Assembly (NCBI GenBank): GCA_013202295.1
Contig: JABMRT010000032.1
Span: forward strand, 1 to 36,905
From: Candidatus Zhuqueibacterota bacterium
GTDB lineage: Bacteria > Zhuqueibacterota > QNDG01 > JABMRT01
DNA length: 36,905 nt
Direction: 5' to 3'
Below, piece after piece: positions 4,328-34,183 of this stretch; the stretch's first letter is position 1, and every line of letters begins with the position of its first letter. Under the pieces are notes generated by a model. That model saw nothing but the letters and a program-made list of their open reading frames with translations. It was not told where the DNA came from and did not search any database. The translations under genes were made by a program, and so were the position numbers.

Positions 4328-4831
4328 TCAGGATGCTTCGGTGTGACTTTTTTCAAGTTTCCTTAATTTGGTGCGTAATAGCCTTCTTGTAATAGATGAG
4401 ATATGATCAATGATCATTTTGCCATTAAGGTGATCTGTTTCATGCTGTAAAACTCTTGCGAGCAATCCGTCCGCGATCAGGTCAATGGATTTGTTATCAG
4501 GATCAAGCGCTGTGAGGTGGACTCGATCCGGACGTGTGACATCAACCCGAATGTCCGGCAAACTGAGGCATCCTTCATCCATTGAATCAGCGCGGGCGTC
4601 TTCGGGCACCGTCAATACGGGATTGATGAGAACCATGAGCCCTTCTCCGGCATCAACAATAATGAGCCGTTTGGTTAGCCCGATCTGATTCGCTGCCAGC
4701 CCCACGCCGTCTTTGACATACATGGTTTCTGTCATTTCTTCGATTATTTCATGAAGTTCATCATCAATTTCAAGAATTTCATCCGCGCGAGTTCGCAAAA
4801 CCGGGTCCGGGTATGTGACTATATTATACAT
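4328..4831 (-). CDS. def: Peptide deformylase
   Basis: Metal-dependent hydrolase that removes the N-formyl group from nascent proteins. All three family motifs are visible in 167 residues: GVGLAANQIG (42-51), EGCLSLP with metal ligand Cys88, and QHETDHLNG with His130, catalytic Glu131 and His134. The ATG is preceded by GAGGAA at good spacing. It is the first gene of a likely def-ptsI unit. The roughly 195-bp gap upstream separates it from the large PHP-ABC ATPase gene and carries two inverted repeats. Confidence 0.97.
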   Translation of the reverse strand: MYNIVTYPDPVLRTRADEILEIDDELHEIIEEMTETMYVKDGVGLAANQIGLTKRLIIVDAGEGLMVLINPVLTVPEDARADSMDEGCLSLPDIRVDVTRPDRVHLTALDPDNKSIDLIADGLLARVLQHETDHLNGKMIIDHISSITRRLLRTKLRKLEKSHTEAS

Positions 4832-4912
4832 AATTTCCTCAAAATTACATCAATTGTCTAACAAAATTTAACGACTCATAAAATAATAAGTTTCATAACG
4901 CGCAGACTAATA

Positions 4913-4939
4913 GGTGTGAGGACGTTTTTTTCTCACACC
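4913..4939. repeat. Inverted repeat, 8-bp stem
   Basis: GGTGTGAG (4913-4920) pairs perfectly with CTCACACC (4932-4939) around an 11-nt loop rich in T on the plus strand. No T-tract follows the stem on either side, so it is not a standard intrinsic terminator. It lies between def and the PHP-ABC ATPase gene. Confidence 0.6.
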
Positions 4940-4974
4940 CTTGTTAAACCTGATGGTATGCGGTCTTTCTGTAC

Positions 4975-4992
4975 GTACTAGCCCGCTAGTAC
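4975..4992. repeat. Near-perfect palindrome GTACTAGC-CC-GCTAGTAC
   Basis: Two 8-bp arms (4975-4982, 4985-4992) are separated by 2 bp, 33 bp beyond the stop codon of the PHP-ABC ATPase gene. It could be a protein-binding dyad, a weak terminator stem or a scar at the edge of an acquired segment; the sequence does not decide. Confidence 0.55.
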
Positions 4993-5025
4993 TTGTTGAA
5001 TTATGCTTAAGCCAGCGTAACACAG

Positions 5026-8000
5026 TCATGTTCGCCCCACACCCAAGACTGCGCGCCGGCGACCCTGCTTTCTGTATTTCAAACGACGGTTGTCGAACGC
5101 AGGCAACGTTCCTTCGAGGATATCCACAACGGCTTGATTGATGCGGACGTCTTCGATAGAACCGGAAAAAAAATCAAAGTCGTTCACACCGTCCTTTTTA
5201 TCTATAGAGACATGGATGATCTGCTCTGCATCGGCCACGACGGCGAGGTTCGGATTGTGAGTTACCAGGATGATCTGCCGCCGCATCTTGGCCTGCTTGA
5301 TAAACGTGACCAAAATTTCGTAAACGCTCTTGTTGTCAAGATTGTCCTCCGGCTGATCAATCACAAGAGGGATATCCTGTCGGTCAAGCATGAGATAGAA
5401 AACCAGCAACAGACCGCCACGCTCTCCGGGCGAAAGTTCACTGAGGTCTTTCTGATCGACCTTCAGATCGTACTTGGTGACAAGATAGTCAAAGCCGAAG
5501 AGATAGTCATACAAATCCTGAACTAACCTCTGGCCCTTTATCTGTTTGAACACGTCACGTGCTGCATTCGGTGGCGCCACCTCATCGCGTTTGTCGATAT
5601 GCAGAGCTTCGACTATCGCATTGAGTGCCTTGAAGACCTGTTCCTCATTCTCCCAGTCGGTCACAGAATCGCTGAGACGACGAAGCATTGTCTGTCCTTC
5701 CTCCTGCCCGCGGAAACTGCCGATGGCGACATGATTGATGAATTTCAGAAACTCGTCGAAGAACATTGGGCTAAATCGCAAGCCCGCATCAATAGAGATG
5801 TTGTATTCTCCAAGATGCTCGCGGCACTTGGTTATCTCTCTGTCGATGGATTGCTTGATGGCGTTATAGAACTGTGTGAGTCCACATTTCTTACAGAATA
5901 TCTCCTTGCTGATATGCTCCCGCTCGCTGTGGGCGATGCGCAATGCTTCCGGATAGAACTTGTTGACACTGTCCAGCTCCTTCTCCAGTCCTTTCAGGGT
6001 ATCAGCGCCAGGATTCTGGTCGTCGCCCCGCAGTTCATTTTGCCTTTCCGTCCATAGTCTCAGGTTGCTAAGATATTGCTGATACGCGCGCGCGGGGTTT
6101 CCCATCCTCTCAACAATCTCGGCCTTTTGAACCTCTATTGCTGCTTTTTGGCATACAAGGCTGGTGGCCGCTGTCGCTGTGCGCGCTGATTCAGTGGAGG
6201 CCTCGTCCTCGCCACCAACCATTGCTTCGATTTCGTCGCTGGTTAAAAGCAAGGCTTCGATCTGCTGCAACCTCTGCGCTTTCGCATTAACAACTGCGTC
6301 GAGACTGCTGTAATCCACGACCAGCTTAACGATCTGATCGAAAGTAAGGTCGGCTGCTGTGAGTGCGGTCCGATACTTCGCTTTCAGGCCGATCAGAGCA
6401 CCTGCTTCGCGATTGATTGCTTGCCTGACCTGCCGTAGTTCTTCGGCAGACTGACTGATCTCAATCTGTTCCGTTTTAAGCTGGTCAATCTGATTGGTAA
6501 GACTAGAAATATTCTGTGTAAGCTGTTCGATCTGCGCGATTTCCTTCGGCGCAGTTCCCGTAATTGCTTCGGGATTCTGCTTTTCCTCTGGTCGAGCAGT
6601 CGCATGCGCCTCAAGGTCCTCCTTCTTCAGTGTGATCTTTTCCTCGAGTCCCTTGCGGTAATCTTCGGTTAGTTTCTTTTCTATTGATACAATTTTTATG
6701 TTAGCTTTATAAAGCCCCTGCTTCTTCTGTGCAATGTCTTCCTCAGCTTGCTGTGTACGGTACTTAATCAGGTCATCGAGATTGGTCATGCCGTGCTGAT
6801 CCTGCGGCTTGACGTAGCGGAAGATGACTTCATTGAGCGTTGCCCTAAACTCGTCGTCCGCGATATTCGAGCAGATTCTCTCAAGGTATTTCTGCGGTAG
6901 GTATTCGACCTTTTCCGGCAGGTGCAGCTCGACTTGTGCATCCAGCAGCTTGCTGTCCGGCTCGCCCTCATACCAGCTCAGTATCCCCTGGAAGTGCTTG
7001 GCGCAACCGCCCTTGAGGAATTTTTCTTTGTTCAAAAACGAAAACAACTCTTCGGACTTTCCAGTTGACAAACCCTTTGAGGTCTGGTTGTGACTGTTGC
7101 TAAGCAGCCCGATGATGTCCGTAATCGCGCTTTTACCGCTACCCTTATTTCCTATGATCGCAACAAGCTCCTTGCCAAGAACGATCTGCTCATCAGAAAA
7201 CCATGAGCAATGTTGGTCGTGCTGATAGCCGTCAATGCAGGTGATGTGTAGTGAATCTATATATCGATTCTTGTGCTCTCGGACTCGCCGCTCGATTTCC
7301 GGTTCTTCACCGATGAACACGCGGTTGCGCGGCTCGAAGATGATCTGTTTGAGACCTTCAAAGGTGAGATCGGCCTTGACCCAAGTTGGCTCCAGCACGA
7401 TGCCGCTTTCTGCATCGGAAACAACCTGACCCAGACGCGCATCGAGGTCCGCAAGTGAATGGGCGTCGCACCCGGACAAGACAGGCTTTGGTTTGGTGTA
7501 TTCCGTTTTGTCCTCAGCACGGTCGGTGGATAGAAAATACTCTTTGTTTCCCGCATTCCCGAAGAACGCATCGCTGAACTTATCGATTTCGTCTGTAATA
7601 AGAAGTTTGCGCTTCTTACCGCGTTCAGCACGGATACCGTCATTGTTCGCCGCCGTGATGATAAGAACACAATCGAGAAGATCAGCATCCTTGCCATAGG
7701 TACTTTCAAGAGCCTCGCGGATAAAAGTACGTGTCGTCGTCGCTTCCTCGAAGTGAGTTTTCTTCGTTAGCTCCGATGCCATAATATTCCTACTGACGTT
7801 ATCGGTCTTGCTTGTCTTCAAAGACTGCAGGAACAACCTGATCTTTGCCTCATAATCCGGTTGGAAAGGAGTGAAGATCAGGTGAATATTGACCTCCTCC
7901 TGTTCTCTGTTGACAACATCGTTGGTTCTTAGCTCGATATTCGGCAAGAACACCTTCTCGGAATCCGCGTAACGTTGATGGAACTTTTCGCAAACGGAAA

Positions 8001-8190
8001 AATAGCAGCCGGCGGAGAAGTAATCCGTGATTCCGAAGACCTGCACATCTGACTCGTACAGTCTCCGGCAATACTCATCCCACACGTCACCTCTATCGAC
8101 ATTGTACTGGTCGTCGAGTTTTGTTCCAGGCGCATGGAGATGGAGATCCCACTTTCTCCATTCTGATCCTCTTGGCCAGGGTTGTGTCAT
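5026..8190 (-). CDS. PHP-domain / ABC-SMC-type ATPase (TrlF-like), probable defence or DNA-conflict protein
   Basis: A 1054-residue protein. The N-terminal PHP-type metal-dependent phosphoesterase domain (about 10-310) shows DLHLHA, ITDYF, NIELR and GCDAHS. The ATPase that follows is split by an insert: Walker A GNKGSGKS near 345-352, then helical/coiled-coil segments (about 480-760), a CxxC (CKKC, near 767-770), ABC signature LSPGERGG (near 917-924), Walker B LVIDQPED (near 940-950) and H-loop VTHNPN (near 975-980). This resembles RecN/SMC/Rad50-type ATPases fused to PHP; public annotation calls similar proteins TrlF-family AAA-like ATPases (from recall). Such fusions are known from bacterial conflict and defence loci, so nucleic-acid cleavage or processing driven by ATP is a plausible inference, not shown. 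It is richer in G+C than its neighbours (36 of 60 bases at 6181-6240) and stands alone between def and thiC. ATG 8190 is preceded by AGGAGAG, 11 bp away. Confidence 0.85.
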   Translation of the reverse strand: MTQPWPRGSEWRKWDLHLHAPGTKLDDQYNVDRGDVWDEYCRRLYESDVQVFGITDYFSAGCYFSVCEKFHQRYADSEKVFLPNIELRTNDVVNREQEEVNIHLIFTPFQPDYEAKIRLFLQSLKTSKTDNVSRNIMASELTKKTHFEEATTTRTFIREALESTYGKDADLLDCVLIITAANNDGIRAERGKKRKLLITDEIDKFSDAFFGNAGNKEYFLSTDRAEDKTEYTKPKPVLSGCDAHSLADLDARLGQVVSDAESGIVLEPTWVKADLTFEGLKQIIFEPRNRVFIGEEPEIERRVREHKNRYIDSLHITCIDGYQHDQHCSWFSDEQIVLGKELVAIIGNKGSGKSAITDIIGLLSNSHNQTSKGLSTGKSEELFSFLNKEKFLKGGCAKHFQGILSWYEGEPDSKLLDAQVELHLPEKVEYLPQKYLERICSNIADDEFRATLNEVIFRYVKPQDQHGMTNLDDLIKYRTQQAEEDIAQKKQGLYKANIKIVSIEKKLTEDYRKGLEEKITLKKEDLEAHATARPEEKQNPEAITGTAPKEIAQIEQLTQNISSLTNQIDQLKTEQIEISQSAEELRQVRQAINREAGALIGLKAKYRTALTAADLTFDQIVKLVVDYSSLDAVVNAKAQRLQQIEALLLTSDEIEAMVGGEDEASTESARTATAATSLVCQKAAIEVQKAEIVERMGNPARAYQQYLSNLRLWTERQNELRGDDQNPGADTLKGLEKELDSVNKFYPEALRIAHSEREHISKEIFCKKCGLTQFYNAIKQSIDREITKCREHLGEYNISIDAGLRFSPMFFDEFLKFINHVAIGSFRGQEEGQTMLRRLSDSVTDWENEEQVFKALNAIVEALHIDKRDEVAPPNAARDVFKQIKGQRLVQDLYDYLFGFDYLVTKYDLKVDQKDLSELSPGERGGLLLVFYLMLDRQDIPLVIDQPEDNLDNKSVYEILVTFIKQAKMRRQIILVTHNPNLAVVADAEQIIHVSIDKKDGVNDFDFFSGSIEDVRINQAVVDILEGTLPAFDNRRLKYRKQGRRRAVLGVGRT

Positions 8191-8254
8191 GATAACAATG
8201 CTCTCCTACTGATCCTGTATAATATTTAGAAGAATAGACAGAAGAAAAAACTCT

Positions 8255-9550
8255 TTATTCATTCTCTGACCCAAGCAGTGTCTGATTCACAAGCTTAATC
8301 GCGCAAAAATCACCGCACATCGTACAAACATCCTCTTCTTTGGGAGCGGCACTCTTTCTCAATGCCGCCGCCCGAACAGGATCAATCGAAAGCTCAATCT
8401 GTTTATTCCAATCCAAATTTCGACGCGCACTTGACATCGCATAATCCCACTCTACTGCTCCAGGAACACCTTTCACTAGATCGGCCGCATGAGCCGCTAT
8501 CCTGGCAGCCATCACCCCTTCTCTCACTTCATCCGCATTGGGTAATTTCAGATGTTCGCAGGGCGTCACATAACAGAGAAAATCCGCGCCCTCAGAAGCA
8601 GCAAGCGCTCCGCCTATGGCTGAGGTAATGTGATCATATCCTGGTGCTATATCGGTTACCAATGGACCGAGTACATAGAAAGGAGCATTCTGGCACAATT
8701 TCTTTTGTATCTGCATATTGGTGCGAATTTGATCAAGCGGCACATGACCCGGCCCCTCAATCATCACCTGCACATTGGCCTCACGCGCCCGCTGAGTCAG
8801 CTCGCCCAATATGAGCAGTTCCTGAATCTGTGCCCTGTCCGTGGCATCGGCGATTGACCCTGGGCGGAGGCCGTCTCCCAGACTGAGTGTCACATCGTAT
8901 TTTTTGGCAATTTCAAGCACGTGATCAAATTCAGAGTAAAGGGGATTCTCTTTCTCATTGGCAATCATCCAGGTCATGAGAAAAGAACCGCCGCGGCTCA
9001 CAACATTCGTGAGTCTGCCCTGTTTTTTTAATCTTTCCAGACTCTGCAGCGTCAATCCGCAGTGCACCGTAAAGAAATCCACGCCTTCTTCCGCCTGTTG
9101 TATGAGTACATCAAATAAAGTCTCAGGTTTCATATGAATAATGCCGCCGCCATCCTGAACGGTACGAACGGCTGCCTCATAAATCGGCACGGTTCCAAGT
9201 ATCAGCGGGATTTCTCTCAGAATGCGTCGCCGGATCAGGCCCAGATCCCCAGCCGTGGATAAATCCATGAGCGCATCGGTTTTGGCCTCGAGGGCCACAC
9301 GTGCTTTTTCAATCTCTTGTTCCAGATCAGAAGCATCGGTTGACGTGCCGATATTGGCGTTGACTTTGGTTCTGAGCCCCCCGCCTACTCCAAGAGGCGC
9401 AACGCCCTGATGGTTTTCATTTTTTACGAGAGCAATCTCGCCTTTAGCAACCTGATTGCATAGCCACTCGGCACCTACACTTTCGTAAGAAGCGACAGTT
9501 TTCATTTCCGATGTGATACGACCCGCTTTTGCCGCTTCCATTTGCGTCAT
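8255..9550 (-). CDS. thiC: Phosphomethylpyrimidine synthase ThiC
   Basis: Radical-SAM-like enzyme converting aminoimidazole ribotide to HMP phosphate, the thiamine pyrimidine moiety. It has 431 residues, the short form without the N-terminal extension of proteobacterial ThiC. Recognisable segments are NANIGTS, MDLSTAGD, VDFFTVHCG, SRGGSF, LSLGDGLRPG, IEGPGHVP, LGPLVTDIAPGYDH and FLCYVTPCEHL. The C-terminal cluster-binding motif reads CTMCGDFC (409-416), so its spacing is CX2CX3C rather than the CX2CX4C I recall for long ThiC. The start ATG follows AAAGGAGT, which is part of a small palindrome (9553-9565). No TPP riboswitch is seen in the 87-bp leader and no other thi gene is adjacent. Confidence 0.96.
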   Translation of the reverse strand: MTQMEAAKAGRITSEMKTVASYESVGAEWLCNQVAKGEIALVKNENHQGVAPLGVGGGLRTKVNANIGTSTDASDLEQEIEKARVALEAKTDALMDLSTAGDLGLIRRRILREIPLILGTVPIYEAAVRTVQDGGGIIHMKPETLFDVLIQQAEEGVDFFTVHCGLTLQSLERLKKQGRLTNVVSRGGSFLMTWMIANEKENPLYSEFDHVLEIAKKYDVTLSLGDGLRPGSIADATDRAQIQELLILGELTQRAREANVQVMIEGPGHVPLDQIRTNMQIQKKLCQNAPFYVLGPLVTDIAPGYDHITSAIGGALAASEGADFLCYVTPCEHLKLPNADEVREGVMAARIAAHAADLVKGVPGAVEWDYAMSSARRNLDWNKQIELSIDPVRAAALRKSAAPKEEDVCTMCGDFCAIKLVNQTLLGSENE

Positions 9551-9637
9551 TAAAAGGACTCCTTTAACCCATTATCGTATTATTTTGGATAAATCAAGAT
9601 ACGAAATAGTAGATGGAATATCCATAAAAAGATAAGT

Positions 9638-11848
9638 TTATTTGGAATTTAAAATTTCCTGAAGGATGGCTCCGCTGCGGATTGGTATTTCTATCCAGTT
9701 TTCAATCGTTTTGAAGTTTTTAGAGGATTTTTCGGTCAGGATTAATTCCCATTGTCCGTCCACATTAAATTGCGCAGGTTGTGAAGGATGAATGTTGAAA
9801 AGCATGATCAAATCCGGATGATCCGAAATGGACAATCGCATACCAAGTGACCCTGGATTGCTGCCATCAATAAATTGGAGGTTCACCTGCTCCAGATGTG
9901 TAAAATGCGTATAAGTTTTCCTGATCTTGATCAGAGCTTTATAATATGAGACCAATTCATGATTTAAATCAACATGATCATAATTCAGCCAGTTTGTTTC
10001 ATTGTCCTTGTTGTAACTGTTATGATCCAGACGGCCTATTTCAAGATCATCAATATTCGTATCGGCAATGACTTTGCTACGTGCGAACTCCTGCCCGGAG
10101 TGAAGCATGACGGCTCCTTGACCCGTAAACAGGATGAGTGCAGCTAATTTATGAATCCGGATTTGATCCACAGACAGCTTATAATGGCTTGCTAAACCCT
10201 TTATTGGATGCGCTGGATCATTCGCACCGGTTGCAATTCGGATAAAATCTCCAAGTGTATATCCGTCATGGGATGCCAGGTAATTCACGGAATGGCCGGC
10301 CCTGATAAACTGTCCGCCTTCACTGGCAGGGGTTCCACGAAGAAAGTGTTTCAAACTTTGAATGGATCTTGCAGCATTTCCCTGTCCGAAAATCATTCCC
10401 TTCTGATGAATGGGATCGGCCCCTTTAATGCCATTGCGATACCAGTCATTCCAGCTGCTCCAATCCCTTTCGGAAAAACGATACTGCCCGTGATTTGTAC
10501 CGCCCCAGGGCTCGCCGATCAAAATCACATCCGGATTGACCTCACGTGCCGCCTTGGAAATGGCGTCCAGTGTATCATCGTCTATCAATCCGGCCAGATC
10601 AAAACGAAATCCGTCAATGTGATAGGTTTGCATCCAATGCAGAATAGAATCCACAATCATTTTTCGTACCATTGGCCGCGTTGTATTTAAATCATTACCG
10701 CATCCACTCTCGGAGCAGTAATGCCCCTTGTCATCAAGCTTAAAATAATAATCACGGTCGATTGATTTTAACGGATTCATATCATAATTGGACACATGAT
10801 TATACACGACATCCAAAATGACTGCAATGCCAGCCTGATGAAAAGCACGGACCATTGATTTCAGTTCGTTAACGGCAGAACCATTATCACCGCAGACTGT
10901 TTCTGGATCAAGGGTCTGTCCCATTGCATAATAGGATTCAGGCGCAAAATAAAAGGAGGTCATATAACCCCAGTGATTGCGCGCATACGGATTCCAGGTA
11001 TTCCATGCGCCGGATATCGCATCTTTGTATGGGATCTCTATGTTGGTAAATTCATGAACCGGCAGCAATTCTACTGCGTTCATTCCTAATGCTCGGATGT
11101 AATCCAGACCGCCACGATGACCGAATTCCGAAAGCCCCTGATATGTACCACGTCGATCTGCAGGAAGTCCGGAGGTCTCATGCGCTGTCATGTCCCGGAC
11201 ATGCAGCTCATAAATCATGAGTGATTCCGGTTTCGGACAAACCCATGAATCGCGCTGCCAGTCAAATTCTGTATCGGGCTGGACGAGGCTTTTCGCGACA
11301 TGTCGATAATCATTGGTGGTCACTACGGCCTGCGAGTAAGGATCTGGAATATCAATCTCTGAAAATCCCTTCGATGAGTTTGGAGACCGACCATTCAACC
11401 GATATGCGTAATATTTGGCATTGAGGGATTTTGGAAGCCGGATTTCCCAAACACCGTCCAAGTCACGAATCATTTCATGAACAGCGTGGGAGAACTGATC
11501 ATATATGTTAAACAAGGCCAACTGGACTTGCGCAGCCTGAGGCGCGAATAGTCGGAATACCGCATCTCCGTTTTCGGTGAAGCATCCCAATTTCTTATCG
11601 GATTGAAATTCATTCAAAATCTGATCTGGACGGAGGACTATTGAATTGAAACCTTCTATTTCAAGCTCATATGTTGTTTGGATATCAATAGGAGAAGTTT
11701 CAAGCAGACAGGTTGCATCTTTGATCTTCATTGCTAAAACTTCCAGACCTGAAATTCGAATTTGAGTTTTTTTCAAAGACTTGGGATTTTCTGAAAAGAG
11801 AATTTCAACGGAAGTCCTGGATTGTATTAACGCATGGATGATCTTCAA
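9638..11848 (-). CDS. pulA: Type I pullulanase / alpha-amylase-family (GH13) debranching enzyme
   Basis: A 736-residue glycoside hydrolase expected to cut alpha-1,6 branch points in glycogen, pullulan or limit dextrins. The N-terminal region (about 1-95) is of unclear family. A CBM48-like beta-sandwich follows (about 105-180, AVFRLFAPQAAQVQL). The GH13 barrel has all four conserved regions: DVVYNHV (near 345-351), GFRFDLAG with the nucleophile Asp (near 416), GEPWGG with the acid/base Glu (near 445) and YLASHDGYTL. The NHWGYM segment corresponds to the YNWGY hallmark of type I pullulanases. There is no signal peptide, so it is probably cytoplasmic and works on stored glycogen. It is apparently monocistronic, separated from thiC by 87 bp and from the PAP2 gene by a 246-bp gap holding an inverted repeat. 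Confidence 0.9.
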   Translation of the reverse strand: MKIIHALIQSRTSVEILFSENPKSLKKTQIRISGLEVLAMKIKDATCLLETSPIDIQTTYELEIEGFNSIVLRPDQILNEFQSDKKLGCFTENGDAVFRLFAPQAAQVQLALFNIYDQFSHAVHEMIRDLDGVWEIRLPKSLNAKYYAYRLNGRSPNSSKGFSEIDIPDPYSQAVVTTNDYRHVAKSLVQPDTEFDWQRDSWVCPKPESLMIYELHVRDMTAHETSGLPADRRGTYQGLSEFGHRGGLDYIRALGMNAVELLPVHEFTNIEIPYKDAISGAWNTWNPYARNHWGYMTSFYFAPESYYAMGQTLDPETVCGDNGSAVNELKSMVRAFHQAGIAVILDVVYNHVSNYDMNPLKSIDRDYYFKLDDKGHYCSESGCGNDLNTTRPMVRKMIVDSILHWMQTYHIDGFRFDLAGLIDDDTLDAISKAAREVNPDVILIGEPWGGTNHGQYRFSERDWSSWNDWYRNGIKGADPIHQKGMIFGQGNAARSIQSLKHFLRGTPASEGGQFIRAGHSVNYLASHDGYTLGDFIRIATGANDPAHPIKGLASHYKLSVDQIRIHKLAALILFTGQGAVMLHSGQEFARSKVIADTNIDDLEIGRLDHNSYNKDNETNWLNYDHVDLNHELVSYYKALIKIRKTYTHFTHLEQVNLQFIDGSNPGSLGMRLSISDHPDLIMLFNIHPSQPAQFNVDGQWELILTEKSSKNFKTIENWIEIPIRSGAILQEILNSK

Positions 11849-21348: not shown

Positions 21349-24300
21349 TTATTTAGTAATTGTTTTATATTCCTTCGTGAGTGTTTTAGCCAGAACGTGA
21401 ATTTTATCCCAGTCTCCATCACGCCCGGCATTCTCAATATCACCGCCAATCACGGAGAATTGGGGAAATCCATATGACCCACCAGTTCCCTTCAGTGAAT
21501 GGCCAAAACGTGTAACCTCGTCTAATTCTTTGTCTTTAATATCTTTTTCAAATTTGCCAAGACGCTCGCCAAGATCTGATATAAAAAATTCTGTCAGTTC
21601 AGCCATCATCGGATCAATTTCATCCGCAGTGCTCTGACTCTTGACTCCTGATTCTTTTTCTATCGTCTTCTTGATTTTAGTAACTTCCTTTTTGGGACTT
21701 TCATCCTTTTGTATATATTTCTGCAGGACTTCAGCCAATTTTTCACGATTTACAGGTTTGGCAAGATAATCTGTACATCCTGCATTCAAAGTTTTCTTGC
21801 GATGTTCTTTCATTGCATGAGCCGTTAACGCGATAATTGGCAGCTTTTCATACTTTTCCTGTTTTCGAATTTCCCGAGTTGCTGTAAACCCATCCATTAT
21901 CGGCATTTCCATATCCATTAATACAATATCATAATGGCTCTTGTCAATCAGATTCAGTACTTCTTTACCCGTTATTGCGAGATCGACAGTGTATCCCAAA
22001 CGATCCAATACGTGTTTCATCAGTTTTTGACCAGATGGATCATCCTCAGCCAATAGAATATGACCTTTCGCTTGAGACACTTCTTTCTTCTGAAGTTGCA
22101 CTGTCGGTTTTTTCTTTTCTACAAGTTGATTGAGCTGTGTAAGCAGAGTTTCAGGGGTTTCCTGGGTTTTTTGGAGAAGAAGTTCATAATGCTCGCTAAG
22201 TTTTGATCTATCACTGGCTGTTAATTCTTTTCCTGTATAAATGACCACAGGAATATCTTTTGTTTTCTCAGATGATTTCAATTTTAATAAAACGTCAAAA
22301 CCATCTACACCCGGCATAAGTAAATCAAGAATCACAAGTGAAACGTTGTTGCTACGTTCTAGATAATCTATTGCGGGACGTCCATTGTCAAATGTTTTTA
22401 CTTTAACTCCTTCGCGTGCAAGAAGTCTTTCAAAGAGTACGAGCACCGTTTTATCATCATCCACAACGAGCACTTCTTTATTTTTATCCTTTGCAAAACC
22501 AATCGAACGATGTAACGTTTCTAAAATCATCTGCTCCTTGGCTGGTTTTTCAACGTATTCAACCGCACCGAGACTGAATGCTTTTTTCTGATTGGATAAA
22601 ACAGAACAAACAATGACCGGAATGCTTCTGGTTAGTGTACCATTTTTCAACGCACGTAGCACTTCCCATCCATCCATTTTACCTGGTAGAAGAATCTCGA
22701 GAATAATCGCATGTGGACGATAAAATTTCGCTTTAAGCAATCCATCTTCGCCACTTGTGGCTGTCTCTACAACGTATCCATCTCTTTCGAGATATTTCTT
22801 TATAAGTGTAGTGGTTGAGGCATTGTCCTCAATGAGAAGAACGGTTGGAGGTTTTCCATCTTCGCCTTCTTCACGGACCTGACCGGTAATTTCATCTAGC
22901 TTGGAAAGAATAGTAAGTTCATCTTTGGAATGTACTTCATCATCTACTTCTTCTTCACTTCGTGGTAACGGATGTTCTTTACGAATTTCAGCGGCCATGG
23001 CACGCTCAGAAATTATTTTTACCGGTATCTCAAATGAAAAAACGCTTCCCCTGCCTTGCTCAGACTCAAACCAGATTCTACCGTCAAGGAGCTCGACCAT
23101 TTGCTTGCAGAGCGTTAATCCCAATCCCGTACCGCCAAAACGCCGTGTAATCGAAGCATCCGCCTGTGTAAACGATTCAAAGATAGTGGATGATTTCTCA
23201 GGCGGAATGCCAACACCTGTATCTTCAATATGAACAACAAGAGTCCCCTGCGTGCTTTTGGTTGACCCAACCTGTACAATAATTTTTACCTTGCCTTCTT
23301 CTGTGAACTTAATTGCATTTCCTAAAAGATTGACCATGATCTGACGAATTTTTGTACGGTCACTTTCAATTAAAGGAAGCACTTTTACATTGGTTTCCAC
23401 TTCAAATTTCAGACCTCGATCCAGCACACGAGGACGTTGGAGCTGGGCCACGCTTTCAACCATCTCCTGGAGATCGAATTCTAGCATCTCCACTTCCATT
23501 CGACCTGTTTCGACTTTGGCGAGATCAAGAATCTGGTTGATAATATGCAATAATTCTTCACCGTTTAATTTGATGGTTTGGGCAAAGTCACCTAATTCCT
23601 CAGGTAGATTTTCCTGAAGCAACAGATCTGAAAACCCAATAATGCTGTTCATTGGTGTACGGATTTCATGACTCATGTTAGCTAAAAACTCACTTTTTGC
23701 CCGGCTGGCAGCTTCAGCCATCTGCACATTTCGCTTTTCACTTTCGTAGAGCTGTGCATTTTCAAGGGCCATGGCAATTTGATCTGCCAAGGTCTTCATC
23801 ATCGCACTGTCTTCTTCATCAAATCCATTGATCCGTTCACTTGCAAGATGAAGTACACCCACCAGATTGTTACCCTTTTGTATGGGTACAGCCAGTTCAG
23901 ACTGACTTTCTTTAATAAGCGGTTTTACACCTTTATCATCCAAAATATTCTTACAGATTACCACATCACCACTTGAAATAGCCTTGCCAATCAAACCCTT
24001 ATTCTGTTTCATTCTCAGTTTGTTCGGTATCTGTTTTGAATAAGGCCCGGCCTTCGCCTGCATAAACAGATCATTTTCTTTTTCATCCAGACGCATCAAA
24101 ACAATCTGACAATTTTCATATTCTGAGCTTATCGAATCAACAATTTTCTCGCTCAATTTTGTACTATCCAGCGTGGATGAGGCTTTTTGCGCAACCTCAT
24201 TGATTAAGGATAACTGACGCGTTCTCCGCCGCTCTGTTTGCATTAAACGGGCGTTTTCCAGGGCCACACCCACTTGCCCAGCGAGGATTGTTAAAATTCT

Positions 24301-25311
24301 TAAATGGGCATCGATAAATTGATGAAGCCCTCTTTTAAGTAGGACAATGACTCCCAGAGTTTTATCTTCATATTGCATTGGTACAGCAAGCATGGATTCT
24401 TCCGGGGGTTTTTCACCTTTTGGGTAGCTGGCCTTTGGATGTTTAGATACATTGCTGATCATCTCCGGCTTCCCTTTGGCGAAAACCAGTCCTGTGATAT
24501 CCTCACCGACTTGCAGCCTCAAGTCTTCAACTTTTGCACCTTGTTTTTCCTGATCCAGTTTTTGCCCGTAATAAACAGGAATCAGATACCGGCCATTGTC
24601 ATCAATTCTGTAAATCCGGCATTCGTCATAATCAATGAGACGTTTAACACCCACAGCCACAGCTTCTCCAACATCTTCGGGCATCAGGGAACGATTCAGT
24701 TTGTCTGATACCTCATTGATGGTCTCAATCGTCTCAAGGGCTTTTCTAAGTTCCTTGTTTGCTTCTTCTAATTCTTGATTTCGTTGTACCGCGTTCTCAA
24801 ATGTGGAAAAAAGCAAATCGAGAATCTGCATTCTGTCAGAAGTGATAAAATGTTTCTGACCTGCAAAAAATATCTCAATCCCCATTTCCGTAATAGAATT
24901 CCGGCGCAGTTCCTGATTGGCTAAAATATATTGGATACGCGAGATCAGGAATTGTTCACTGTAAGGTTTGGTTACAAAATTATCAGCACCGCTGAGAAGA
25001 CCTCGAATCACATCACGTGGATCAACTAATTGCGTGAGAAGAATAACAGGGATATATTGTAAATTCTCATCTGCGCGAATTTGTCGGCATAATTCATATC
25101 CATCCATTTCAGGCATTAGAATATCACTGATCACAATCGTAGGTTTGTTTTCACGCATGATACGCAGTGCATCCTTGCCATCTTTGGCCACAGTAACGGC
25201 ATAACTGTGTTGCTGAAGAATATGCTTAAGATGGAGTGCCTGTGTTGGACTGTCTTCGACAACCAGTATTTCAACACCAATATTGATATTTTTATATTCA
25301 ATTTGTTTCAC
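21349..25311 (-). CDS. Multidomain hybrid histidine kinase REC-GAF-GAF-HisKA-HATPase-REC-REC-REC-HPt
   Basis: 1320 residues, no membrane segment. Order: REC1 (about 14-130, Asp63); linker helix; GAF1 (about 205-355); GAF2 (about 370-520); HisKA with His548 in MSHEIRTP; HATPase (about 650-765) with intact DTGVGIP and GGTGLGL boxes; REC2 (about 823-940), where Glu872 replaces the phospho-acceptor Asp (LEILLPG); REC3 (about 945-1060, Asp996); REC4 (about 1083-1200, Asp1133); HPt with His1271 in HSLKGTGG. It can therefore hold a whole phosphorelay in one chain. The start is GTG 25311, 8 nt after GAGG and 25 bp after the cheB stop. Position in the che operon suggests cross-talk with CheA or the free HPt. 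Confidence 0.93.
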
Positions 25312-25336
25312 GGATTCGTCCTCAATATAAAACGGT

Positions 25337-26410
25337 TTAGGACTCTACATTTTCGGTTTTTATGGTCAGATTTACCAGTTTTTCTGCAATTTGTGTCGAC
25401 GGCAGAACGATAGAGGCGCCACCGATCTTAATGGCTTCCCCTGGCATACCATGAACCACAGAGGTTTCTTTGTCCTGTGCAATTGTTATGGCACCCAGTT
25501 CTTTGAGCAATTTCAATTCATCAGCCCCATCTTTACCCATACCCGTTAACAGGACACCGATGGATTGTTTACCAAGAGTCTTGGCAACAGATTTAAAAAA
25601 GTAAGACACCGAAGGACAGAGGTTTTGTTTGGGTTGTTCATCATTAAGATGTACCTTCAACGACTTGTCAATTCCAAGTTGATATCCATCTGGAGCAAGA
25701 TAGGCACATCCAGGTTTTAGTCTCTCGCCATCTTCTGCAATATTCACAGAATATCCTGTTGTGCGGCTGAGCCATTCAGCCAAACCGGCAAGAAATCCCG
25801 GCGCGATATGTTGTACAATGACAATTGGAATTGGATATTCTTTTGGCATTCCGGAGATAATTGTCTGCAGTACCAAAGGGCCGCCCGTGGATGAACCCAT
25901 TGCAATGAGTTTAATATCCTTGGATGCGCTTATTTTTTCCTGGGTTACTTTTCGTTCTTTATCCTTCTTTGGAACACTTTTTTTACGATCATGTGACCAT
26001 CGTCTGACAACCTTTACACCTGCCATTAGTTTCACTGTTTTTAACAGTTCGGTCACAGAGGCTTCCGAGTCTGGATGCCCCATTCCTCTGGGTTTTTCGA
26101 GTGCAGCGACCGCTCCAGCTTCCATGGTGCGGAAAGTTTTATCAACTTCCTCCGGATTCCAGCTGGCACTGCAAATGACAATCGGCACTGGATATGTTTC
26201 CATGATTGCTCGCGTAGCCTGATATCCATCCATCTTGGGCATATGTATATCCATCGTCACAACATCAGGCTTGGTCAGTGCCACCATCTCAACGGCTTCT
26301 TCACCATCTTTGGCAACACCAACAACTTCGATTTCAGGATCAGAATCCAGAATATATTTCAAATATCCTCGAACGACTGGCGAATCTTCGGTTATTAAAA
26401 CCTTTATCAT
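25337..26410 (-). CDS. cheB: Chemotaxis response regulator protein-glutamate methylesterase CheB
   Basis: Demethylates MCPs and provides adaptation. 357 residues with an N-terminal receiver (Asp54 in TMDIHMP) and a C-terminal methylesterase. The catalytic triad is visible: Ser174 in GSSTGG, His201 in VQHIAPG and Asp294 in GMGKDGAD. The linker (about 125-165) is unusually Lys-rich. It lies 22 bp after cheA. Pairs with the CheR encoded upstream in the same operon. Confidence 0.96.
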
Positions 26411-26432
26411 CTATGGAACCCTCATGCTTGTC

Positions 26433-28811
26433 TTAGATCAATTTTTTAATCACATCAAGAAGATTGCTCTGATCAAAACTGCGTTTTACAATATACGCGT
26501 TTGCACCCACATCAATCCCGCGCTCACGATCTTCTCTTGATTCAAGTGCCGTGACCAGCACTACTGGCAGCTCAGCAGTACTCCTATCGGCTCTGATTTT
26601 GGTGACCAGATCAAATCCATTCATTCTGGGCATTTCAATGTCAGAAACGACAAGATCAAATGTCGCTGATTTCAATGCTGAAATTGCATCCATGCCATCT
26701 ACGGTAGTTTGAACTTCATATCCGGCGGATTCTAAAATATTTTTCAATAGCGTCCTTGATGTGATTGAATCTTCAGCAACTAAAATGCGTTTTTTCTCCA
26801 ATTTTTCTTCCTCCATTTTGGCTCTGCGGGTGGAGACTGATACAACTTTTGCGGCAGATTTTACCAGATCAGGCACATTCAGAATGGAAACGACTTTTCC
26901 ATCTCCAAGAATCGTAGCACCTGCAATATTGCGTACACGAATTAATTGCCTGCCCAGATTTTTTACGAGAACTTCTTGCTCACTGAGAACGCGATCACAT
27001 GTAAAAGCCACGCGCTTATCAGCAGAGCTTAAAACGAGAGCTCGGACAGAATCCGAATCGGGGTGAATGGATTTTTTTTCGGGCAATTCAAGTACATCTT
27101 GAAATCTAGTTAACGCCAACATGCGACCATCCATAAGAATGCTCTCTTTATTTTCGATCAACTGTACATCTTCATGATTGAAACGTATAACCCGTTCAAC
27201 GTTAGTTGTTGGTATAATGAAATACTGATCCTGAACCTGTATAAGGATTCCCCTAAACTTGGCCACAGTCACAGGAAGTAAAATTCTGAATGTGGTACCT
27301 TCACCGACTTCAGTTTGAATTGTAATGGATCCACCCAGATTTTCCACCTTTTCGCGCACGATAGGTAAACCCAGACCCCGACCGGATAAATCTGTAATAA
27401 TGGGGCTTGTGGAGACTTCGGACTGGAAGATCAACATCACAGCTTCCTGGTCATCCAGTTGATCTGCTTCAGATTTTGAGATAATTCCTTTTTTAGCAAC
27501 TACTTCACGTACTTTATCTGGATCAATTCCCCCACCATCATCAACAATTATTATTTCAATTTGATTCGCACTTAATTGTGAAATAGCAATGCTGATCGTA
27601 CCACCCTTCGGTTTCTTGTTCTTGAGCCGTTCGTCGGGTTTTTCAATACCATGATCTATACAATTCCTAAGAATATGAATAAACGGATCCTTGAGTTCCT
27701 CCAGGATGCGTCTGTCAATTTCAATAGTACTTCCCTTGACAATAAGTTCTACGTCTTTTCCTTGATCTCGGGAAAGATCTCGAACGACTTTTGGCAGGAT
27801 CCGAAGTAACGTGGAGAATGGCAGCATCAATAACTTCTTCATATCTTCCAACAATGTATCAAGCATGCCACCAAATGACCTGGCATTGTTATCGGTCAAA
27901 CTTGAAAGATTTGACAATTTGTCTTCGAAATCTTTAAATACTATGAGATTCTCGAGCATTAAGGAATTTATTAGCAGCATTTGTGACTGAATCATAGCCG
28001 AATCAGTTTCATTCCCATTACTCTCGAATTCTTTCGCGGTTCCTCTAAAATCGACTTCCTGTTTTTCCCATCCCTTACGCAGAGTGGCAACTTCCAGAAG
28101 CAATTCTTTATGATCCTTGGATTGTTGAAGAACAGCCAATTTTGTACTGAGCATTTCTTCAGTTTGAAGTAATATAGAATCAAGTTTTGATGTAGAAATC
28201 CGAATCGTATCAGAAACAAGTGCTTTCTCAAACTCTTTGGGCATCGCGCTCCGTGTAGAATCATCAGATGCGACGATAGTGGGTTCAGATTCAGGCGCAG
28301 TATCAATTTGATCCGGTTCTTCCATCTGTTTGGAAATGGTTTTTGTTTGTTTTATTTTCTCAGCCTCTTGTCCAGTTCTTGCGGATGTGCTCTCTGTTTT
28401 TTTAGAAGAGGAGGATAATATTGTTTTCTCAAGAGCAGTCAGTTTGCGCATGATATCGGATATTTCTGTTTTCTCCGGACTTTCAATCAAGCCACTTACT
28501 GTATCGACTGATTGATGTAGCACATCAAAAAGCTCAGGTGTAATATCGATCTGTTGATGTTTCAAAGCAGAAAAAACTGTTTCCACTGATTGGCATACTG
28601 TCTCTACATCAATCAGGTTGACTGCACGAGAGGCGCCCTTTAAACTGTGTGCTTCCCGGTATATAGTTTCCACAATCGGGATCTGATCCATGACCTTGAC
28701 TGTTTTTTCAAGTTTGAGAAGTCCTGAAGAAATTGCCTTTAAATGTTCTTCGGCCTCAATTTTGTACATCGACAACAGTTCTTTAAAGAAAGCCTCTTCG
28801 TTGCTAACCAT
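26433..28811 (-). CDS. cheA: Chemotaxis sensor kinase CheA with C-terminal receiver domain
   Basis: 792 residues. P1/HPt with phospho-His55 in EAHSLKGAS; a low-complexity acidic linker (about 130-195) with no recognisable P2 CheY-binding domain; dimerisation-like region (about 200-340); HATPase with N-box HILRNCIDHGIEKP (379-392), G1 DDGGGID and G2 GRGLGLPI; CheW-like P5 (about 515-655); REC (about 674-792) with Asp724 and Lys in YIVKRSF. CheA-REC fusions are typical of chemosensory systems that control functions other than flagella. GGGAGT precedes the ATG. The P1 domain is closely similar to the separate HPt protein encoded just upstream. Confidence 0.95.
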   Translation of the reverse strand: MVSNEEAFFKELLSMYKIEAEEHLKAISSGLLKLEKTVKVMDQIPIVETIYREAHSLKGASRAVNLIDVETVCQSVETVFSALKHQQIDITPELFDVLHQSVDTVSGLIESPEKTEISDIMRKLTALEKTILSSSSKKTESTSARTGQEAEKIKQTKTISKQMEEPDQIDTAPESEPTIVASDDSTRSAMPKEFEKALVSDTIRISTSKLDSILLQTEEMLSTKLAVLQQSKDHKELLLEVATLRKGWEKQEVDFRGTAKEFESNGNETDSAMIQSQMLLINSLMLENLIVFKDFEDKLSNLSSLTDNNARSFGGMLDTLLEDMKKLLMLPFSTLLRILPKVVRDLSRDQGKDVELIVKGSTIEIDRRILEELKDPFIHILRNCIDHGIEKPDERLKNKKPKGGTISIAISQLSANQIEIIIVDDGGGIDPDKVREVVAKKGIISKSEADQLDDQEAVMLIFQSEVSTSPIITDLSGRGLGLPIVREKVENLGGSITIQTEVGEGTTFRILLPVTVAKFRGILIQVQDQYFIIPTTNVERVIRFNHEDVQLIENKESILMDGRMLALTRFQDVLELPEKKSIHPDSDSVRALVLSSADKRVAFTCDRVLSEQEVLVKNLGRQLIRVRNIAGATILGDGKVVSILNVPDLVKSAAKVVSVSTRRAKMEEEKLEKKRILVAEDSITSRTLLKNILESAGYEVQTTVDGMDAISALKSATFDLVVSDIEMPRMNGFDLVTKIRADRSTAELPVVLVTALESREDRERGIDVGANAYIVKRSFDQSNLLDVIKKLI

Positions 28812-28846
28812 TTATACTCCCAATATCCGAAAAATCATACATTTCT

Positions 28847-29266
28847 TTATTTCCTGTACTGAACCATTTGACTGCTGATTTCTTCTACAATTCGCATTAG
28901 TTCAGATTTTTCTCCCTCGGTTTTGCCTTCACTATTAATTGATTCAAGCAAAACACTCAACAATTTAACGGCTGTGTGAAACTTATTAAATATCTCGGAT
29001 GGAATTGTAAGTTTTTGTCGCATAAAAATACCAAATGTGGTTTCAAGACTTTGGCATATTGGTTCCACATCAACCAAGCCGATTGTACGGGCAGCCCCTT
29101 TTAAACTATGCGCGGAACGATGTACGACTTCGGCAATTTCAATTTGTTTCTCCGAATTCATATTTTGCTCAAGATCATCGAGACCTTGAGTCATGGTTTG
29201 AACGTGTTCCCGACATTCACCTTTGAAGATTGTAAGCAGTTCCTTAAAAAAGGCCTCATCTTGCAT
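28847..29266 (-). CDS. Stand-alone HPt phosphotransfer protein, paralogue of the CheA P1 domain
   Basis: 139 residues, a single HPt domain with phospho-His53 in SAHSLKGAAR. It matches the N-terminus of CheA from the next gene closely: both begin with a short tail then AFFKELL, share AHSLKGA, then LVDVE or LIDVE, and CQSLET or CQSVET. It therefore looks like a duplication of the P1 domain. It has no kinase part, so CheA or the hybrid kinase must phosphorylate it, and it could pass phosphate to one of the five or more receivers encoded in this operon. AGGATAACGTC precedes the ATG. Confidence 0.88.
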   Translation of the reverse strand: MQDEAFFKELLTIFKGECREHVQTMTQGLDDLEQNMNSEKQIEIAEVVHRSAHSLKGAARTIGLVDVEPICQSLETTFGIFMRQKLTIPSEIFNKFHTAVKLLSVLLESINSEGKTEGEKSELMRIVEEISSQMVQYRK

Positions 29267-29301
29267 GACGTTATCCTATCATTATTAATTGGATCAATCC
29301 G

Positions 29302-30909
29302 TTATACCCTGTATTGTTCAATCAGATGTTTCAAATTCTGCCCGAGTTCATGTAAATCATGTGCTGCAGATTCAACTTGTTTTGTGGCTGTGACATTTTG
29401 CGTGCTGGCCTGTTTAATACTCTCCATGGCACTGACGACCTGATCCATTCCGACCAGCTGTTCCTGGCTAGAGACTGCGATTTGTGTTGTGGCTTGTGCC
29501 GCTTCCCCTACACTATTCGCCAGATCCTGGATGGCGTTACTCGCATTTCCAGAAACTTCTACACCGGCTTCAACTGCACTTCCGCCCTGCTCAGTGGTTA
29601 ATACTGCACTGCCTGTCGCTTTCTGAATGTCATCCAGGATTCCCCTGACGCGAGATGTCGCCTGTCTGGATTGTTCTGCAAGGCTCTTAACTTCCATGGC
29701 AACAACTGCGAAGCCTTTGCCCTGCTCACCCGCTTTCGCAGCCTCAATGGATGCATTCACCGCAAGCAAGTTCGACTGTTCGGCAACATCTTCCACGGTG
29801 GCAATAATACCTCCAATTGCTTGTCCATGCTCGCTAAGTTTCATAATGCTCTCTGCTATCGTGGTCATCTGAACCTCAATGCGCTTCATGCTATCTACCA
29901 TATCGACCACGGCCTTTTCACCATTTTGTGAAACCTGAACGGCCTTTTGAGCGCTCTCGGAAACGTATTTTGCTTTACGATTTGAATCAAGAGCGGTTTG
30001 ACGAACCTCCTCCACTGTGGTCGATGTTTCGTTGGCCGCTGTTGCAGTTTCAGTGGCACCAGATGCAATCTGGGTGACAGAGGCTGATATCTCACTCGAA
30101 GCCGCAGCAAGTGCATTGGCAGCTTCTTTAATTTGCATCGTCAATTCGCGAAGATTCGCTACCATTTTTCTAAATTTCTGAATAAGGCTGCCTACTTCAT
30201 CCTGCAGATTGGTGTGCGGCACTTCTACTTGCAAATCACCATTGGCAATTTTATCTGCGATATCAATCACAATATGGAGAGGTTTCGTAATGCTGTAGAT
30301 AATAAAGAATGCGAGTCCGAAAATGAATGGAAGGATTCCGATAATAGTCACATAGACCACGGTTCTCATATTGGTATTCAAAGCCTGAGAATCTATAATA
30401 CTATCCTGTATATTCTGCATATCATTCAGATTGACTGAGTAAAGTTGATCTCGAATTGAACTAAATTGCCATTTTGCGTTTTGATATTCGGTTGACAGAG
30501 TGTCTTGTCTTCCTCGCCGAATTAATCTTTGATACATCTCACGTGTAGGCGTATAGTATGCTTGCATTTGCTCATTGATGGTATCAATTTGCTCCCAATC
30601 AATGACTGAATTCCCTCGCTGTTCCTCGATCTGAGTTTGGAAATCCTGAAACATATTATCTGCATCATCCAGTTTGGATATGTCTCTAGTCATCATCCCT
30701 GCTTCAAATAGAGATTGTATGCTTGTGAGGTCATCCCTTAAAAATTGACTTGTTACCCAGGCCGGCACATAACCGTCTACGATATCTACTAGGATTTTTT
30801 CATTCCCACTGATGCCTGAGTTAATAAAAGTGACAGCAATAATTGATGTAATGAGACTTAAAACAGGTATCAACAGGATCTTGTATTTCAGATTTAACTT
30901 ATTAAACAT
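29302..30909 (-). CDS. Methyl-accepting chemotaxis protein (transmembrane chemoreceptor)
   Basis: 535 residues. TM1 (about 10-30), a helical periplasmic ligand domain (about 33-183, 4HB_MCP-like from length and helical character), TM2 (about 184-206), HAMP (about 207-260, NGDLQVEVP) and a cytoplasmic signalling hairpin. The highly conserved tip is [20 protein letters not shown], then [11 protein letters not shown] (about 373-404). Ala/Thr/Glu-rich helices on either side (about 265-330, 440-520) offer methylation sites. There is no C-terminal pentapeptide tether for CheR/CheB. It is the only receptor in the operon, so it is probably dedicated to this CheA. Confidence 0.95.
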
Positions 30910-30963
30910 CCTTCAACCCCTTTATCTAGTGAGACACTATATTTCATACGTTTAAAAATCCAA

Positions 30964-31536
30964 TCAAACATCCGGCTCTTCATTTACAATAATCGATGGA
31001 TCTGAAAATATTTTTTCTATATCTAAAAGGATCAGCGAATCTTTTGTAACCCCTTTTAAATATTTTGTTTGTATTGGGCTGAATGTTGGAAGTGGAGGCT
31101 GGATATGTTCTTTAGGAATAATTTTAACACCCATGATAAAATCAGCAAGCAGCCCCATTTCCAGATCATCGGTTCTCACCACAAGAACACGATTTAGATT
31201 AGACAAACCCTTTATAGGAAGTCCGAAAAATCTTCGTATATCAATCAAAGATAAAATGGTTCCTCTCAGATTCATAATTCCCATGATAAAAGATGGCGTG
31301 CAAGGCAGAATTGAGAAGTCAGACATGGGATAGACTTCACTTACATATTTTGATTCAATGGCATACTTCTCATACGCAAGTTCAAATTCTACTACTTCGA
31401 TGGCATCATCATGCGAGCCTATATCATCTTCTTGCAGTGCCATTTCTTTTGCACGTTCACCCAGAATTTTATTAATCTGACTCTGGCTGAGTTTTTTTAA
31501 TTTCGTTTCTGTATCTTTTTTTGAGGTTGTTTTCAT
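30964..31536 (-). CDS. cheW: CheW-like coupling protein with N-terminal extension
   Basis: 190 residues with a single CheW domain (about 45-185), which links receptor to CheA. Recognisable features are VVEFELAYEKYAIES, PCTPSFIMGIMNLRGTILSLIDIRRFFG, and GLLADFIMGV. The N-terminal 45 residues are Lys- and Gln-rich and extra compared with the second CheW of this operon. Its ATG overlaps the cheR stop by 4 bp (ATGA). Two CheW proteins in one operon may serve different receptors or arrays. Confidence 0.92.
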   Translation of the reverse strand: MKTTSKKDTETKLKKLSQSQINKILGERAKEMALQEDDIGSHDDAIEVVEFELAYEKYAIESKYVSEVYPMSDFSILPCTPSFIMGIMNLRGTILSLIDIRRFFGLPIKGLSNLNRVLVVRTDDLEMGLLADFIMGVKIIPKEHIQPPLPTFSPIQTKYLKGVTKDSLILLDIEKIFSDPSIIVNEEPDV

Positions 31537-33131
31537 GCAGCCTTTCCTTCATTTATCATTGCCAGTATTAATTCTTTCAACCGACCGGCCGTTATGCCTT
31601 CAGAAGAGGGTAATATATCCTCTTGTTTATGATCTTCAAGTAAATGAAGTGCATTCTGGAAATATTTGATGGATTCCATTTCACGACCAACCTGCTTTGT
31701 AATATTGCCGAGCATGAAATAGGCAAGCACGTAATTGGGATCGAGATACAACGCCCGTTTAAATGATGTGATTGCATCCATCAATTCACCTTTTTCCATA
31801 AGAATGACCGCATGTAGATGATATCGTTCAGGATTTAATCTTTCAATTGCCAGTGCTTTCTCACACCATGATAATGCATCATTTAATTTCCCTTGATTTG
31901 CAAATGACTTGGCCATGAGAGCCATTGCTTCAACATTTTCATGCTCTTTCTCTACCAGCACTGAAATGACCTGCACTGTATCATGATACTTGCCCTGATC
32001 ATACAACTCTGTGGCTCTCTCAAAAACAGTTTTGGGAATAACTTCTTCTGCTTCAACGAGTATCTCAACAGCATCTTCTACTTCAACAACTATGTCTACC
32101 AATTCTTTTTCAGGTTCGTCTTCAACTACATAGCTTGTTTTTTGCACATCTTGACTTGCGGCTTCAATGGGTTTAAATGAACTTTCACGAAGCTTGAATG
32201 GCTTAAACTCAGGCTGAGTTGCAGGTAAATCATAGTCAGCATATAAATGTGGTGGAAATACAAATGCGCCTTTTTCATCCAGGTTTAAATTCTTGCGATA
32301 TAGAATAGCTCCTGGGTGATTCTCTGTTTTGAAATGAGTATTAAAAATAGGAGAAGTTTCGCTGGAAGCCACAATCAAACAACCGTCATCGAGAAGTGAA
32401 TGATATAGCCGCTCGATTACATTTTTTACTTGAGGATCGCTGAAATACATCAGAACATTTCTACAAAAAATGATATCCATCGCGTTTGTATTGTTAAAAA
32501 CCGAAGGATATATATCTTCTACTAGATTTAGATATTGGATTTTAACCATCCGTTTAATCCGCGGGATGATCTCATAAAATCCATCTTTATTGGTTTTAAA
32601 ATAATTTTCTTTCAACCAATATGGCGTACCTCGAAAGGACCATTCACGATACAGTCCCTGACTTGCCCGGTTTAAAAACAGAGGATTAATATCTGTGGCA
32701 AGAATTTCAATGTTCCATGATTGCAGATCTGGTATGATGCGATCAAGAAGAATGGCAATTGAATACGGTTCTTCACCAGAACATGAAGCAGCACTCCAGA
32801 TCCTGATTCTCTTCTCATCATCCCAACGTTTTCTGATTAATTCGGGCAATATTGTTTTTTCCAATGCTTCAAAAACTTTCGGTTCACGTATGAAATATGT
32901 CTCTCCCACGGTTAAATGGCTCGCAAGCACTTCGACCTGATGCTTTTTTAAAGGTCTTGACAATAGCCATTCAATACACTCTGTGACATCTGAAAACCCA
33001 AATTCTGAAGCTGCAGATCGAATCCCTCTTAATAGATCCAATTGCCTGCCTTTCTGAAAATGCAGCCCCATCTGAGCAGCTACAAAGGCGCTTAACTCAT
33101 CAAGCAATTGGTTTGGGACACGTTTTTTCAT
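31533..33131 (-). CDS. cheR: Chemotaxis protein methyltransferase CheR with C-terminal TPR repeats
   Basis: 532 residues. The N-terminal all-alpha CheR domain and SAM-dependent methyltransferase cover about 1-280: GETYFIRE (76-83), SAASCSGEEPYSIAILL (113-129) as the SAM site and IFCRNVLMYF. An acidic Val/Glu-rich linker (about 335-370) leads to about four TPR units (about 375-515; ATELYDQGKYHDTVQVI, ALSWCEKALAIERLNPERY, ITSFKRALYLDPNYVLAYF). CheR-TPR proteins are seen in non-flagellar Che systems, where the TPRs mediate protein contacts. It methylates MCP glutamates using SAM. Confidence 0.95.
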   Translation of the reverse strand: MKKRVPNQLLDELSAFVAAQMGLHFQKGRQLDLLRGIRSAASEFGFSDVTECIEWLLSRPLKKHQVEVLASHLTVGETYFIREPKVFEALEKTILPELIRKRWDDEKRIRIWSAASCSGEEPYSIAILLDRIIPDLQSWNIEILATDINPLFLNRASQGLYREWSFRGTPYWLKENYFKTNKDGFYEIIPRIKRMVKIQYLNLVEDIYPSVFNNTNAMDIIFCRNVLMYFSDPQVKNVIERLYHSLLDDGCLIVASSETSPIFNTHFKTENHPGAILYRKNLNLDEKGAFVFPPHLYADYDLPATQPEFKPFKLRESSFKPIEAASQDVQKTSYVVEDEPEKELVDIVVEVEDAVEILVEAEEVIPKTVFERATELYDQGKYHDTVQVISVLVEKEHENVEAMALMAKSFANQGKLNDALSWCEKALAIERLNPERYHLHAVILMEKGELMDAITSFKRALYLDPNYVLAYFMLGNITKQVGREMESIKYFQNALHLLEDHKQEDILPSSEGITAGRLKELILAMINEGKAA

Positions 33132-33178
33132 GTAACATCCTAGATGCTGTGCTGATTAATAGTAATTATTATGTAATT

Positions 33179-33652: not shown

Positions 33653-33703
33653 ATGATTTTCATCCCTTATGTCACATATAAATTCGGATGAAGCAGAAAT
33701 AAA

Positions 33704-34072: not shown

Positions 34073-34183
34073 TGGTTCTACCCCTTTTGTGAGCACAAGA
34101 ATCAGATTTTCACTCTGTATTGATCCTTTTCAAAACAAAATGTTTTCTCAATACTTACACTGAAAAAGACTCAAAGAATGACG

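Follow-up and report, generated by a model that had tools for sequence, protein, structure and literature searches.

A predicted TrlF-family PHP-ATPase inserted at the thiC-def junction of a Candidatus Zhuqueibacterota bacterium: a candidate single-protein defence system

Described systems and the TrlF family

Ppl is described as a single-gene 3'-5' ssDNA exonuclease that combines PHP and NTPase domains, is restrained by NTPs, and is released by nucleotide depletion together with 3'-OH ends (review PMC12904381). The only genetic study bearing on TrlF is that of the Photorhabdus TRL operon, in which temperature restriction was linked to trlG, not trlF (PMC7554251). In this TrlRFG operon, trlF lies beside trlR and trlG, the latter coding for AlbA_2 and HATPase_c_4 domains. 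The NCBIfam family NF045780 (TrlF family AAA-like ATPase) is presumably named after the Photorhabdus operon, to judge by the name itself. Literature searches for "TrlF family" returned no paper, and we found no published phage-challenge experiment on any TrlF-family protein.

The gene described here lies in a window of 36,905 nucleotides, meaning the whole stretch of DNA that was analyzed, from a Candidatus Zhuqueibacterota bacterium (Table 1), and is flanked by thiC and def instead of trlR and trlG. It occurs once in the host genome. Its product scores 614.8 bits against NF045780, for which the cut-off is 350 (E=4.5e-184), with protein residues 7-1040 aligned to model positions 1-944 of 944, a whole-length match at an E-value that excludes chance. 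By profile the product is thus a full-length member of the TrlF family, with the PHP domain, Walker A, coiled coil, signature, and Walker B in the family's order. TrlF is already a named, widespread, and annotated family, to which the window gene adds a member. TrlF homologs from the host's own phylum are mostly about 880-1000 aa, whereas the window form is larger (about 1050 aa) and has a longer coiled coil.

Ppl shares the single-gene PHP plus SMC-like ATPase design, and C-terminal homology to it is detectable, but the best alignment falls mostly on the coiled coil and ATPase. Membership in Ppl can be rejected, since the window protein reaches 75.9 bits against the Ppl model (NF042955), whose cut-off is 1000; PADLOC matches were likewise weak, the best being Ppl at 56.4 bits, and no other Ppl was found in the host genome. 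The Spaf_1101 family (NF045781) has a related C-terminal ATPase, and its model gave 128.7 bits, under the cut-off of 475, with the best match over residues 735-1041.

Table 1. Features of the TrlF-family gene and its flanks, in window coordinates.
Feature	Position	Strand	Basis or remark
def (peptide deformylase), operon gene 3' of insert	4328..4831	-	profile match; directly after thiC in relatives
Spacer, insert to def	4832..5025	.	two perfect 8-bp hairpins, 4913-4939 and 4975-4992
TrlF-family PHP-ATPase gene, 1054 aa	5026..8190	-	intact ORF; one copy in the host genome
ATPase C-lobe: SPGERG 920-925, VIDQPED 943-949, THNPN 977-981, ILEGxxxAFxxR	5060..5440	-	motifs
Coiled-coil insert, ~residues 471-797	5800..6780	-	AlphaFold2 model
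CKKC, residues 766-769	5884..5895	-	lacking in relatives; away from coiled-coil tip
ABC/SMC ATPase N-lobe, Walker A GNKGSGKS residues 347-354	7045..7260	-	Pfam, motifs, model
PHP domain, ~residues 1-310	7261..8190	-	motifs, fold match, family profile
64-bp gap, thiC to insert	8191..8254	.	no promoter-like match
thiC, operon gene 5' of insert	8255..9550	-	profile match; relatives' gene order

Domain architecture

A sequence-only reading of the window had described the protein as a PHP phosphoesterase domain joined to a RecN/SMC-like ATPase with a long coiled-coil insert, and profile and structural evidence bear this fusion out. The HLH, DYF, IEL, and DAH motifs that it named are all present, as HLH at residues 17-19, TDY at 55-57 (its "DYF"), IELR at 85-88, and CDAH at 241-244. 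The putative metal ligands H17, H19, D56, E86, H103, D242, and H244 are conserved among close members of the family. Loss of the PHP ligands, which that reading had held would count against it, is seen at most in part: these seven residues are kept, but the usual PHP His of TDH/TEH is replaced by Tyr57. Most close members likewise have Tyr at this position, and His is kept by some relatives.

Pfam PHP models did not match the window protein, in which Pfam recognized the ATPase alone (AAA_21, SMC_N); they matched 4 of 29 family members, with a best E of 1e-7. A search of the PHP part by sequence only against solved structures gave chance matches alone, and a family-profile search gave as its top match the PHP protein PsfC, a weak hit (E=0.035) in which the DxHxH, T-D/E-Y/H, E, and GSDAH motifs are nevertheless paired. 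Foldseek matched the domain to RNase AM (7ug9, TMt 0.61; also 9etk). The PHP assignment follows from these four lines together, the conserved motifs, the relatives with Pfam PHP, the PsfC profile match, and the RNase AM fold. RNase AM, a PHP exonuclease, shares the fold, but TrlF differs in having Tyr at TDH, and to our knowledge RNase AM has no SMC-like ATPase.

An AlphaFold2 model built from 40 sequences (pLDDT 84.5, pTM 0.69) places the N-lobe of the ATPase after the PHP domain and the C-lobe after the coiled coil, whose helices span residues 471-506, 509-531, 548-612, 628-647, and 732-788. In the C-lobe, SPGERG is the signature, VIDQPED the Walker B, THNPN the H-loop, and ILEGxxxAFxxR the family's C-terminal motif; the ATPase motifs and most of the PHP ligands are conserved. 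The nearest solved folds to the ATPase in Foldseek were MukB, Rad50, SMC, RecN, JetABC (Wadjet JetC), and Lamassu LmuB. Wadjet JetC, Lamassu LmuB, Rad50, and RecN share the ABC/SMC head and coiled coil, and we know of no fused PHP domain in any of them; Wadjet, Lamassu, and Rad50 act with separate nuclease subunits.

The same reading had suggested that a CxxC could act as a zinc hook or zinc knuckle, and proposed structure prediction as a check on whether it lies at the coiled-coil tip. The residues exist but the site is neither conserved nor apical: it is found in the window copy only, the equivalent positions being N..R in the relative at 79% identity and S..C in that at 71%, and it falls within helix 732-788, about 20 residues before the helix end near the ATPase as read from the secondary structure. 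Since the CxxC is not shared by relatives and sits close to the coiled-coil base rather than the apex, we reject a zinc hook or knuckle here, and a tempting wrong lead is removed.

Insertion site and origin of the gene

In all eight relatives of the same family and order that were examined, thiC and def are separated by 5-87 bp and followed by ptsI, whereas the window has 3423 bp between the two genes. The TrlF gene occupies this site in the host genome only, the site being empty in the eight relatives, which confirms that the gene was inserted into an otherwise conserved thiC-def-ptsI operon. The earlier claim of a solitary gene between housekeeping genes, and its proposed presence/absence comparison at the def-thiC junction, thus come out as expected, with def and thiC as the only flanking genes and no visible partner; no defence gene turned up among the other window proteins that were scanned. 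The TrlF gene, def, and thiC are all co-directional.

Two perfect 8-bp hairpins, GGTGTGAG..CTCACACC (4913-4939) and GTACTAGC-CC-GCTAGTAC (4975-4992), lie in the 194-bp spacer that separates the insert from def, and this 3' hairpin segment occurs once in the genome. No attC or terminator was recognized in the spacer, no direct repeats of at least 7 bp link the two insert flanks, and no TPP riboswitch was found upstream of thiC (8255-9640, Rfam). In the wider context, ptsI and tilS lie beyond def, and a pullulanase-type gene lies beyond thiC. A tRNA gene with anticodon CAT (2348-2422) sits between ptsI and tilS and is possibly the TilS substrate tRNA-Ile2 rather than tRNA-Met. Farther along the window, 21349-34096 is a chemotaxis-like cluster with CheA, two CheW, a CheR with TPRs, CheB, an MCP, an Hpt protein, and a 1320-aa multi-receiver hybrid histidine kinase.

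Composition was compared in a sample of 106 ORFs of the host genome, the TrlF gene among them. Its GC3 is 0.591 against 0.434 +/- 0.078 in the 105 other ORFs, 3 of which are as high, and its codon-choice score is the lowest of the 106, about 4.9 sd under the mean. The suggestion of a G+C-rich gene of deviant composition therefore stands for GC3 and, more strongly, for codon choice, but not for plain G+C, which at 0.500 equals that of thiC (0.504). Neither lineage-wide def-PHP/ABC-thiC synteny nor host-like composition, which together had been named as grounds for abandoning the idea of an inserted defence gene, was found.

The closest relatives found are from other phyla, one in a Desulfobacterales MAG (79% identity) and one on a contig binned as Waddliaceae (71%), a binning that is uncertain since the contig is just 4 kb; the tree groups both with the window protein at 100 SH-aLRT. 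Other genomes of the host family lack the gene, as does most of the phylum, in which family members are patchily distributed and 15 of 82 genomes (the host counted among them) pass the NF045780 cut-off. The own-phylum homologs that were aligned share 17-25% identity with the window protein and are placed elsewhere in the tree; thiC, taken for comparison, shows 63-69% identity within the host family. Taken together, the empty thiC-def sites, the outlying codon usage, and nearest relatives in other phyla are strong evidence of horizontal transfer between phyla.

The TrlF gene on the Waddliaceae-binned contig (L022:204-3584) is bounded by GTTATGC upstream and by a 133-nt GCATAAC...GTTATGC pair downstream, followed by a small ORF, and thus has the look of a possible integron cassette. 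Two loci of the host genome score over the cut-off of the TIGR02249 integron integrase family (G000:C8:40986-41927, 450.8 bits; G000:C241:354-1166, 368.6 bits). An integron origin of the window insert is unsupported: an attC-like scan gave 31 hits in the window versus about 39 in shuffled sequence, with none at the 3' end of the insert.

Neighbourhoods of relatives and proposed function

Conjugative plasmids and prophage-like contigs carry relatives of the gene, which often have restriction-modification or Septu-like genes next to them but no fixed partner. A gene-neighbourhood survey in relatives was among the checks that the sequence-only reading had proposed. The 79% relative adjoins a type III DNA methyltransferase gene, one at 43% (L099) adjoins HsdM and HsdR, and another (L103) has a PtuA-like ATPase gene nearby. 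A type I RM system follows the copy on a Sulfitobacter plasmid (L089), an AbiEii-type gene is near the R. sullae copy, and other plasmid copies lie among conjugation genes or recombinases. A Microcystis phage record contains one further copy. A profile scan of virus-like contigs gave 79 loci with related sequence, many of which match the ATPase alone; a scan of viral contigs for close relatives gave no match, and comparing viral proteins by fold yielded generic SMC/SbcC-like matches alone.

We consider the gene most likely to be a horizontally acquired, stand-alone TrlF member whose product would by itself defend the cell from phages or other foreign DNA, with the ATPase gating the PHP domain, and we hold this with moderate confidence. 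Family membership, the Ppl-like design, and the mobile and defence neighbourhoods of relatives speak for a defensive role; the Tyr at a PHP ligand, the failure of Pfam PHP to match, a similarity to Ppl that is mostly ATPase, the Photorhabdus result on trlG, and the lack of a defence gene among the other window proteins scanned speak against it. Given the Ppl-like layout, in which the ATPase motifs and the majority of the PHP ligands are conserved, an ATPase-gated PHP nuclease is the best explanation. Two ATPase heads, linked by the Rad50/SMC-like coiled coil, would bind ATP as well as nucleic acid (DNA ends, probably, or other intermediates of infection) and would restrain the PHP domain. An infection signal would then free the PHP domain, which would hydrolyze nucleic acid using divalent metal. 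Phage protection, nuclease activity of the PHP domain, its substrate, and a Ppl-like trigger are what we infer by analogy with Ppl.

If the clade departs further from Ppl, it could constitute a defence type of its own, with a Tyr-modified metal centre, a different substrate (e.g., RNA or dsDNA ends), and a one-gene, cross-phylum module that in at least one relative may be an integron cassette, an idea that we put forward tentatively and regard as rather unlikely.

Explanations other than defence were also weighed. The protein could be a stress or growth-arrest factor like Photorhabdus TRL, in which TrlF and TrlG (AlbA_2 plus HATPase_c_4) limit growth under heat or other stress and defence is secondary. 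Deletion of the TRL operon relieved temperature restriction, and the family name apparently comes from TRL, but every mutation selected in the operon was in trlG and none in trlF (PMC7554251). In addition, no SLFN_AlbA_2 protein was found in the host genome, and the annotations of the ten plasmids that were read show no TrlG-like partner next to TrlF. We think this role improbable. We give equally little credence to a DNA-repair or recombination nuclease, SbcC/RecN-like, that was adopted by the host. The resemblance of the ATPase to Rad50, RecN, and SMC proteins, the co-directional position in a housekeeping operon, and the general occurrence of PHP domains in DNA polymerases and exonucleases would all suit such an enzyme, but its absence from the host family and most of the phylum, its foreign codon usage, and relatives on plasmids and prophage-like contigs and beside RM genes would not. 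That the gene is a passenger, a recent insertion with no function in the host, is very unlikely: atypical codon usage and its presence in one genome only within the host family are compatible with this, but decay would be expected without selection, and the 1054-codon frame is intact, the ATPase and PHP residues are kept, and protein identity across phyla is 79%.

The combination of an insertion with eight empty sites, transfer between phyla, relatives in defence neighbourhoods, and residues that can be mutated makes the hypothesis that this TrlF protein acts in defence an easy one to test.
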